Positions 51,200 to 53,230 of a DNA stretch of 64,000 nucleotides are shown piece after piece; within the stretch, counting starts at the first letter, position 1; each line of letters begins with the position of its first letter. A program made the position numbers and the translations under genes. The DNA lies in assembly GCA_018715805.1 (NCBI GenBank), contig DVKX01000018.1, positions 1 through 64,000 on the forward strand. Direction: 5' to 3'. This stretch comes from Candidatus Faecousia intestinigallinarum. GTDB lineage: Bacteria; Bacillota; Clostridia; Oscillospirales; Oscillospiraceae. A model generated the notes under the pieces. The model was not told the DNA's origin. It ran no database searches and was given only the letters and a program-made list of their open reading frames with translations.

Positions 51200-51490
51200 A
51201 TGGCTGAGGAAAAGAACGGCCTGATCTACAAGGGCCACCCGCTTATGCGCAAAGACAACTTGGTCTACTATGGCTCTATGGCCGATACGCATATCGTGAT
51301 GCTCCAGATTCTGGAGACAAAAACCGTCAACGGCGAGGAAATCGCTACAAAAGTATCCGTCCAGCTTCAGCTTACCGATCCCAACGCCAGAGGGCGGGAT
51401 CGTATCGTCAAAAAAGGCGAAAAGGCAGGGTTATACACCGCCCTGGACTTCGGCTGTGTCTGGCTGGAGCGCGCCTTGGCCGGCAAATAA
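51200..51490 (+). CDS. Conserved small protein of unknown function after ireB
   Basis: The 96-residue product begins MAEEKNGLIYKGHPLMRKD and shows a beta-rich core (NLVYYGSMADTHIVMLQILE, IATKVSVQLQLTDPN) with a C-terminal helix (GLYTALDFGCVWLERALA). I recall close relatives in Oscillospirales, always as hypothetical proteins. It is acidic-basic balanced, with no signal peptide. TTGGAGG precedes the ATG. It shares a transcript with ireB unless the hairpin at 51142-51173 blocks it. Function unknown. Confidence 0.82.
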   Translation: MAEEKNGLIYKGHPLMRKDNLVYYGSMADTHIVMLQILETKTVNGEEIATKVSVQLQLTDPNARGRDRIVKKGEKAGLYTALDFGCVWLERALAGK

Positions 51491-51496
51491 AAAATT

Positions 51497-51528
51497 GCAG
51501 CTGCCGCTTATGCGGCGGCTGCTTTTTT
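51497..51528 (+). terminator. Terminator of the ireB unit
   Basis: GCAGCTGCCGC (51497-51507) pairs with GCGGCGGCTGC (51512-51522) with one wobble, followed by six T (51523-51528). Confidence 0.88.
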
Positions 51529-51594: not shown

Positions 51595-51618
51595 TCCAAA
51601 ACGTTGGGAGGAATACGC

Positions 51619-52638
51619 ATGGCGACAAACAAACGCGGCCGGCAAAGCTTTATTCTGCCGCAGCCGCCGGTAATTACCCATTGGGCCAGCATTGCCGGAA
51701 AAAAAGAATCGGAAGGGCCATTGGCTCATGCCTTTGACCACTGCTGCCGGGATACCTTTTTCGGGCAAAAAACCTGGGAGCAAGGAGAAAAACGAATGCA
51801 GCAAATGGCGCTGGAAACCTTGATGGAAAAAGCCAAGCTGCAAAAAGAGGACATTGACCTGGTGTATTCCGGCGATTTGCTGAATCAGTGCATCGGCTCC
51901 TCTTTTACCCTGCGCAATACCGGCATCCCCCACCTGGGGCTATACGGGGCGTGCTCTACCATGGCGGAAAGCCTGCTGCTGTCGGCGCTGACCGTAGGCG
52001 GCGGCTTTGCACAGCGGACAGTGGCTATGACATCATCGCACTTTGCTTCCTCAGAACGGCAGTACCGTTTTCCGCTGGGATACGGGGGGCAGCGCACCCC
52101 CACCGCGCAGTGGACAGTAACAGGCTCCGGAGCGGTTCTGGTAGCATCCTCCGGCAAAGGCCCCAGGATCACATCGGGCACCATCGGTACGGTAACAGAT
52201 CTGGGGGTGAAGGACGCCAATAATATGGGGGCAGCCATGGCGCCCGCTGCTCTGGCCACCATCAAGGCTCACTTCCTCGACCTGAAGCGTTCTGAGGCGG
52301 ATTATGACCGAATTGTCACCGGCGATCTGGGACAGGTAGGCAAGGAAGCCCTGCTGGCGCTGGCACGGCAGGAGGGGCTGAACCTTGGGGGAAAACTTAT
52401 CGATTGCGGCTGTCTGGTATTCGACCGGGAAAAGCAGGATGTCCACGCCGGCGGCTCCGGCTGCGGCTGCAGCGCCATCGTTCTATGCGGCGAGCTGCTG
52501 GGGAAACTGTACAGCGGGGCATGGAAACGCATCCTTTTCTGCGGAACAGGGGCGCTCCTCTCCCCCACCTCCACCCAGCAGGGGCTGCCCATCCCAGGCG
52601 TATGTCACGGCATTGTAATAGAAGGAGGCAGCGATTAA
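51619..52638 (+). CDS. spoVAD: Stage V sporulation protein AD
   Basis: SpoVAD binds dipicolinic acid and is part of the SpoVA channel that loads it into the forespore. The ATG at 51619 has GGGAGG upstream; the frame's TTG at 51604 lies before it. The 339-residue product has the thiolase-like fold characteristic of the family (GNTGIPHLGLYGACSTMAES, MTSSHFASSERQYRFPL, GTITDLG-type segment TVTDLGVKDANNMGAAMAP). SpoVAC, normally encoded immediately upstream, is absent; the stop codon abuts the spoVAE start. Confidence 0.95.
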   Translation: MATNKRGRQSFILPQPPVITHWASIAGKKESEGPLAHAFDHCCRDTFFGQKTWEQGEKRMQQMALETLMEKAKLQKEDIDLVYSGDLLNQCIGSSFTLRNTGIPHLGLYGACSTMAESLLLSALTVGGGFAQRTVAMTSSHFASSERQYRFPLGYGGQRTPTAQWTVTGSGAVLVASSGKGPRITSGTIGTVTDLGVKDANNMGAAMAPAALATIKAHFLDLKRSEADYDRIVTGDLGQVGKEALLALARQEGLNLGGKLIDCGCLVFDREKQDVHAGGSGCGCSAIVLCGELLGKLYSGAWKRILFCGTGALLSPTSTQQGLPIPGVCHGIVIEGGSD

Positions 52639-52995
52639 ATGGAATTTATCAAAGCGTTTATTATCGGCGGTCTGCTGTGTGTGATTGGGCAAATCCTCAT
52701 TGACAAGACCCAGCTGACCCCAGCTCGGATATTGGTGAGCTATGTTGTCCTTGGCGTTATGCTGGGCGCCCTGGGCGTCTATCAGCCATTTGCAGATTTT
52801 GCAGGTGCCGGCGCCACCGTACCCCTCACAGGCTTTGGCAATACCCTTGCCAAAGGCGTGCGGGAAGCGGTGGATAAAGACGGCTTCCTGGGTATTTTCA
52901 CAGGCGGATTTACAGCCGCAGCCGGCGGCATTGCCGCAGCCATTGGTGCGGGTCTGCTGGCCAGTCTGATTTTCAAAGCGAAGGATAAATCCTGA
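52639..52995 (+). CDS. spoVAE: Stage V sporulation protein AE (SpoVAEb type)
   Basis: SpoVAEb is an integral membrane component of the dipicolinate channel. The 118-residue product has three to four hydrophobic segments (FIIGGLLCVIGQILIDKT, VLGVMLGALGVYQPFADF, AAGGIAAAIGAGLLASLIF) and the family's FAGAGATVPLTGFGNTLAKG block. It starts at the base after the spoVAD stop, using the GGAGG-containing end of spoVAD as its ribosome site. Confidence 0.94.
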   Translation: MEFIKAFIIGGLLCVIGQILIDKTQLTPARILVSYVVLGVMLGALGVYQPFADFAGAGATVPLTGFGNTLAKGVREAVDKDGFLGIFTGGFTAAAGGIAAAIGAGLLASLIFKAKDKS

Positions 52996-53052
52996 TTTTC
53001 GGGGTAAGCTACCACTGCGGCAAAGCCGTGAAAAAGAAAGGGAGGTACTATC

Positions 53053-53187
53053 ATGAATAATCAGAACAAGAATCAGAACCAGAATAACCAGAATCAGAAC
53101 CAGAACAATCAGCAGAACCGGAGCCAGAATCAGAATCAGAACCAGAACCAGAACAAAAACGAACAGCAGAATAAGAACTGCCGTTGA
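53053..53187 (+). CDS. 44-residue Asn/Gln-rich microprotein
   Basis: An ATG at 53053, behind GGGAGGT with about 7-base spacing, opens a 44-codon frame with 20 Asn and 15 Gln (35 of 44 residues), almost wholly alternating N and Q with a few K, R, S and E, and ending NKNCR. It lies 57 bases after spoVAE and before a strong terminator, so it is probably co-transcribed with the SigG-type spoVAD-E unit and made in the forespore. The composition resembles low-complexity, prion-like or coat-type proteins. Codons AAY and CAG are used non-uniformly, which argues against a simple trinucleotide expansion. Function unknown. Confidence 0.75.
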   Translation: MNNQNKNQNQNNQNQNQNNQQNRSQNQNQNQNQNKNEQQNKNCR

Positions 53188-53192
53188 CCGGC

Positions 53193-53230
53193 AGCAGCCC
53201 TCCCGGACCACCCGGGAGGGCTGCTTTTTT
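53193..53230 (+). terminator. Terminator of the spoVAD-spoVAE-microprotein unit
   Basis: AGCAGCCCTCCCGG (53193-53206) pairs with CCGGGAGGGCTGCT (53212-53225) over 14 bp, followed by a T run to 53230. Confidence 0.92.

Follow-up and report, generated by a model that had tools for sequence, protein, structure and literature searches.

A previously undescribed family of Asn/Gln-rich microprotein genes behind spoVAE in Candidatus Faecousia, with a putative sigma-G-type promoter

The window, a 64,000-nucleotide stretch of DNA from Candidatus Faecousia intestinigallinarum, includes a small gene on the + strand (nucleotides 53053 to 53187, ATG start and TGA stop codons) that belongs to a previously undescribed microprotein gene family found in Candidatus Faecousia and some of its relatives. 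Its translation is a 44-amino acids protein, MNNQNKNQNQNNQNQNQNNQQNRSQNQNQNQNQNKNEQQNKNCR, in which 35 of the 44 residues (80%) are Asn or Gln. Judged by its sequence, orthologs, codon bias and signs of selection, 53053-53187 is a real coding gene and not a chance frame. We lean, by a modest degree, toward the interpretation that its product belongs to a new family of forespore microproteins of the sigma-G class that would act as an amino-acid reserve like that of gamma-SASP in a clade that does not have SspE. The gene is a concrete candidate for an amino-acid stock in clostridial spores, which have been described as devoid of gamma-type SASP, and in this common gut genus, for which a cultured type strain, Faecousia intestinalis, has been reported (PMC12056005), it is apparently wired like the main SASP gene. 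It also illustrates that a tiny low-complexity gene, invisible to family libraries, can be found through its promoter and synteny.

The microprotein ORF starts 57 nt downstream of spoVAE (52639-52995, +; TIGR02839, 144.8 bits), which follows spoVAD (51619-52638, +; PF07451, 466 bits), and is preceded by the ribosome-binding site GGGAGG (53040-53045, +), found as GGAGG in most relatives. The stop codon is located 5 nt upstream of an intrinsic terminator (53193-53225, +) that consists of a hairpin of 14 pairs, 11 of them G-C, followed by TTTTTT, and that separates the microgene from a convergent addA-like gene. The sequence-only reading of this DNA had described a frame with a strong ribosome site and 80% Asn plus Gln between spoVAE and a strong terminator, a description that was confirmed. 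Among 91 distinct loci a hairpin lies within 25 nt of the stop codon in 87, and in 49 the 8 nt that follow it include at least 4 T. A search of the whole genome revealed no further copy of the ORF. The minus-strand frames overlapping 53053-53187 are mirror translations of the repeat.

The microgene has a dedicated promoter (53011 being its last nucleotide and 52983 its first) with the structure GGATA-N17-TAAGCTA, which overlaps the 3' end of spoVAE. The -35 element, GGATA (52983-52987, +), is located within the last spoVAE codons (AAG GAT AAA TCC TGA), and the -10 region, GGGTAAGCTA (53002-53011, +), is conserved as GGG[CT]A[AT][AG]CTA in the spacer behind spoVAE, while distant genera have the perfect forespore -10, GGGCATACTA. 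Column counts over the 91 loci showed, in the -10 region, the GG, an invariant A and T, and the final A in 84. The -35 element conforms to G-N-A-T-R in all 91 loci, at a spacing from the -10 region of 17 nt in 89 and 18 nt in 2. Of the 90 deduplicated loci with the microORF, 85 carry a strict combined motif, which is absent from all 109 loci that lack the microORF (Fisher p 8e-51, a value that ignores shared ancestry); this association is not circular because the frames were called without using the promoter. At the expected 5' end of the transcript there is a hairpin, TGCGGC-AAA-GCCGTG (53016-53030, +), with a counterpart that begins 1 to 6 nt past the -10 region in 89 of 91 loci (mean score 8.2 vs 4.4 for shuffled sequences) and whose pairs vary between species (GCGG/CCGC, CGCAG/CTGCG, GTGG/CCAC, TTGGG/CCCAA).

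The promoter upstream of spoVAD is separate and more canonical, of the CATACTA type (GCGCATACTA in the window), and CATA.TA is found upstream of spoVAD in most relatives within the genus. Expression of the microORF in the forespore had been proposed earlier on the basis of this upstream promoter; the forespore-type promoter stands, but the microgene has a second one of its own at 52983-53011 and would not depend merely on read-through from spoVAD. Forespore expression is well supported by these promoter sequences, and we infer that the sigma factor is sigma-G, the -35/-10 spacing being one that speaks for sigma-G rather than sigma-F. In C. difficile, sigma-F and sigma-G promoters resemble each other and those of B. 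subtilis, and a G ahead of the -10 is characteristic of the sigma-F promoters of C. difficile (PMC3789822); therefore dual use of the microgene promoter by sigma-F and sigma-G is possible.

Judged by sequence, the same class of promoter precedes the alpha/beta-type SASP gene (PF00269), of which there is mostly one per genome and a single one in this genome, elsewhere (G000:C31). A weight matrix learned only from microgene promoters was applied to the sequences preceding 14 alpha/beta-SASP genes of the genus. In this genome it identified GCATA-N17-GGCCAAGCTA with a score of 19.2, a value that 0 of 200 shuffles attained, and the hairpin TTGCGG-AAAAAA-CCGCAG lies behind this site; over the 14 genes, comparison to shuffles gave p <=0.01 for 9, p 0.035-0.045 for 3, and no significance for 2. 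The two promoters of this genome are thus GCATA-N17-CAAGCTA for the SASP gene and GGATA-N17-TAAGCTA for the microgene, with a similar 5' hairpin and a short leader, the ATG being located 47 and 41 nt past the -10, respectively. The motif GNATR-N14-GGNNAAGMTA occurs three times in the genome, once each before the SASP gene and the microgene and once with no ORF recognisable behind it, against about one chance occurrence predicted by base counts alone; since the motif was written after both promoters had been seen, this count conveys rarity and not an independent discovery. The alpha/beta-SASP genes of Faecousia (L303; G000:C31:33175-33439) have a drifted -10, [C/T/A]AAGCTA instead of CATACTA, and in several of them a hairpin lies where the transcript is expected to begin; this may be a genus-specific strong form of sigma-G promoter.

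With SpoVAE as the anchor, orthologs were sought among 61 genomes of the genus, 120 genomes of the family and 80 named genome loci, the latter including Ca. F. faecavium (L205) and Ca. F. faecipullorum (L216). The microORF screen was based on composition and required a purine-rich ribosome site, so that diverged copies may escape it. In Candidatus Faecousia a short N/Q-rich ORF is present at the same position, about 50-75 nt downstream of spoVAE, in 51 of the 56 spoVAE loci with enough downstream sequence, and about 11 further genera of the family have an N/Q-rich frame at the same position. Among the named records, Ca. Avoscillospira (L231) and a strain that bears the name Pseudoflavonifractor sp. 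MSJ-30 (L232) also have one. Similar frames in related genomes, on which the proposal of a gene at this location depended, were thus found, and frame-breaking indels between close strains were looked for and did not occur. Most genomes of the family have spoVAE without the microORF. As a consequence of this patchy presence in the family and its absence from 5 of 56 loci in the genus, the gene is dispensable. At least 12 changes between presence and absence were counted on a tree of SpoVAE, a weak tree of 118 residues, which suggests that the gene was lost or gained repeatedly.

In the five genus loci that lack the microgene behind spoVAE (L027, L041, L045, L048, L058) the promoter is missing too, and four of them have GAC as the Asp codon, with which the -35 cannot form. 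Copies elsewhere were sought in four genus members of this kind: G028 gave no match, and G025, G043 and G045 gave only two-mismatch matches of the same kind as those obtained with a reversed control pattern. A family profile search missed known positives because of the low complexity of the proteins and is insensitive for distant copies. Pattern searches independent of location over the order returned ordinary proteins except for one unrelated N/Q-rich microORF of 41 amino acids (MNNKNQQNNQQNKQ...; L200:1390-1515, - strand). The latter is preceded by GGAGG, shows no clear forespore promoter, and belongs to an unrelated locus in a different Oscillospirales family, possibly with an independent origin. 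The Avoscillospira-type versions (L063 and L231) are longer, 62 and 81 amino acids, and contain repeats (for example NGMQKQSSTQ) and a common C-terminal [ND]CRDSK segment; these proteins are quite unlike the Faecousia form, yet the same promoter is found in front of them.

A typical member of the family starts with MNNQNKNQN and finishes with N[C/S]R, and the terminus is NSR or NCR in 47 of the 91 distinct loci. Over these loci the composition is 40% N and 27% Q, followed by S, K, R, T and E; hydrophobic residues are nearly absent and the net charge is between +1 and +7 in all 91. The content of N plus Q ranges from 25% to 92%, several orthologs being rich in K/E/T/S instead, and nearly all of the proteins are 23-62 amino acids long, mostly 25-60. 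Purifying selection acts on the microprotein in close pairs: 13 independent pairs include 58 synonymous vs 67 nonsynonymous differences, which with a transition-weighted site count corresponds to a pN/pS of about 0.31 (p 2.5e-10), a value that is approximate because low complexity makes the alignments uncertain. In the best pair (L007/L207), 11 differences are synonymous and 1 is nonsynonymous. The microORFs show a stronger codon bias (CAG 956/CAA 23, AAC 984/AAT 447) than spoVAE (CAG 158/CAA 29, AAC 34/AAT 44).

Comparison of the 44-amino acids protein to Pfam and NCBIfam produced no match, in agreement with the initial statement that no described family has this location, and the divergent, less repetitive relatives gave only meaningless weak matches. 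One of the closest known counterparts, similar in composition and promoter class, is the gamma-type SASP of Bacillales, SspE (PF04259), a short, hydrophilic, Gln/Asn-rich protein encoded by a forespore sigma-G gene. The microprotein shares with it a small, hydrophilic and Asn/Gln-rich nature and, as far as the DNA indicates, a sigma-G-type promoter and a monocistronic organization. Unlike SspE it has no PF04259 match, is about half as long, and does not include a GPR-type cleavage site: the sequence cleaved by the GPR protease contains F/I/V/M and A, and none of the 44 residues is F, I, V or A, nor is there an M past the start. The location of the gene also differs, behind spoVAE and in Oscillospiraceae, where SspE is absent. 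Because PF04259 does not match and there is no GPR-type site, the microprotein is, on its sequence, not a member of the gamma-SASP family, although it may work like one. No gamma-SASP was detected with PF04259 in this genome and 24 relatives, while the B. subtilis control was positive, and SspE has been found absent from clostridial genomes (PMC3533761). As for the alpha/beta-type SASP, the resemblance concerns the gene signals, whereas the protein has no sequence similarity to them, no conserved SASP DNA-binding sequence and no match to PF00269. The minor SASP (SspH, SspK, SspN, SspO, SspP and others) are, like the microprotein, tiny, and form a heterogeneous and lineage-restricted group that in clostridia is limited to SspH, SspI and Tlp (PMC3533761); the microprotein differs in matching none of their models.

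According to the reserve interpretation, the microgene would be transcribed on its own, as a monocistronic member of the late forespore regulon, which in C. difficile includes, under sigma-G, the spoVA and SASP genes (PMC3789822). RNA polymerase with sigma-G, possibly also with sigma-F, would start at GGATA-N17-TAAGCTA in the end of spoVAE and generate a short transcript, opened by a GC-rich hairpin with a possible protective effect on the 5' end, translated from the strong ribosome site and ended by the strong terminator. The product, a short polar protein expected to be soluble, unfolded and slightly cationic, would be stored in the spore core as a reserve of amide nitrogen and amino acids and hydrolysed at germination, acting as a small bulk spore protein like the gamma-type SASP of Bacillus. 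SASP supply amino acids at germination (PMC7649253), and a role as amino-acid reservoir has been hypothesised for gamma-SASP (PMC8452069). This interpretation fits best because of the SASP-type promoter and the polar, hydrophobic-free, amide-rich product, from which we infer both the abundance of the protein in the spore and its reserve function. Against it, 44 residues from one gene are a small store unless the protein is very abundant, and, as there is no GPR-type site, another protease would be needed; the dispensability of the gene, seen in its patchy presence, also counts against it.

A structural or protective role of a disordered forespore protein, in which the N/Q chain would, as the core dehydrates, condense, turn glassy or assemble through hydrogen bonds, functional amyloid included, agrees with the N plus Q content of 80% here and up to 92% in relatives, with the forespore-type promoter and with the high codon bias. 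We regard it as somewhat unlikely, as orthologs with only 25-50% N plus Q, rich in K/E/T/S, keep the promoter, the position and often the end motif, most members are only 25-60 residues long, and a net positive charge in every case disfavors tight packing. The usual definition of a prion-like domain, a conserved N/Q-rich, charge-poor region of about 60 residues or more, does not describe this protein of 44 amino acids from an always positively charged family. Given the wide span in N plus Q content and the K/E/T/S-rich orthologs, it is unlikely that selection maintains an amyloid function in the strict sense. It is doubtful, too, that such proteins evolved in gut Oscillospiraceae as replacements of the gamma-type SASP that aid dormancy by amyloid-like assembly or condensation in the dehydrating core. 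The constant positive charge and the SASP-type promoter could also indicate a small cationic protein that associates with DNA or RNA in the spore, similar to the minor SASP, most of which have no assigned role; this is unlikely, since the charge is low for a nucleic-acid binder and neither PF00269, PF04259 nor any other Pfam or NCBIfam model gave a notable match.

Adjacency to spoVAD-spoVAE is constant wherever the microgene is present, which could point to an accessory of the SpoVA channel in DPA uptake or release. However, the fixed place needs no functional link to SpoVA because the promoter, with its -35, lies within spoVAE; moreover, spoVAE occurs without the microgene in most genomes of the family and the protein has no hydrophobic or structured segment for membrane contact, all of which makes this role quite improbable. 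A forespore small RNA or leader element with an incidental frame would account for the compact transcript with its conserved 5' hairpin and terminator, but is very improbable considering the protein-level selection and codon bias. Nor does the locus resemble a leader peptide or attenuator, as the terminator is followed by the convergent addA and there is no co-directional gene directly downstream. Rfam searches of the locus gave no family above the gathering score, only sub-threshold chance matches, and together with the protein-level selection this led us to reject an RNA-only element. Finally, a 6-nt repeat keeps the frame by itself upon expansion, and a functionless frame made by chance or slippage could arise in this way; since the frame, the promoter and the ends are all conserved across about 12 genera, this has hardly any probability, and the chance ORF was rejected on the basis of the orthologs and of selection.

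The region upstream of spoVAD includes a 96-amino acids ORF (51200-51490, +), located between the IreB gene and spoVAD and followed by its own terminator (51497-51522), that showed no Pfam or NCBIfam match. The spoVAC gene is not adjacent to spoVAD-spoVAE (51604-52995 in the window); a SpoVAC/SpoVAE homolog, 38% identical, is found on another contig (G000:C23:26717-27064) and is probably spoVAC.
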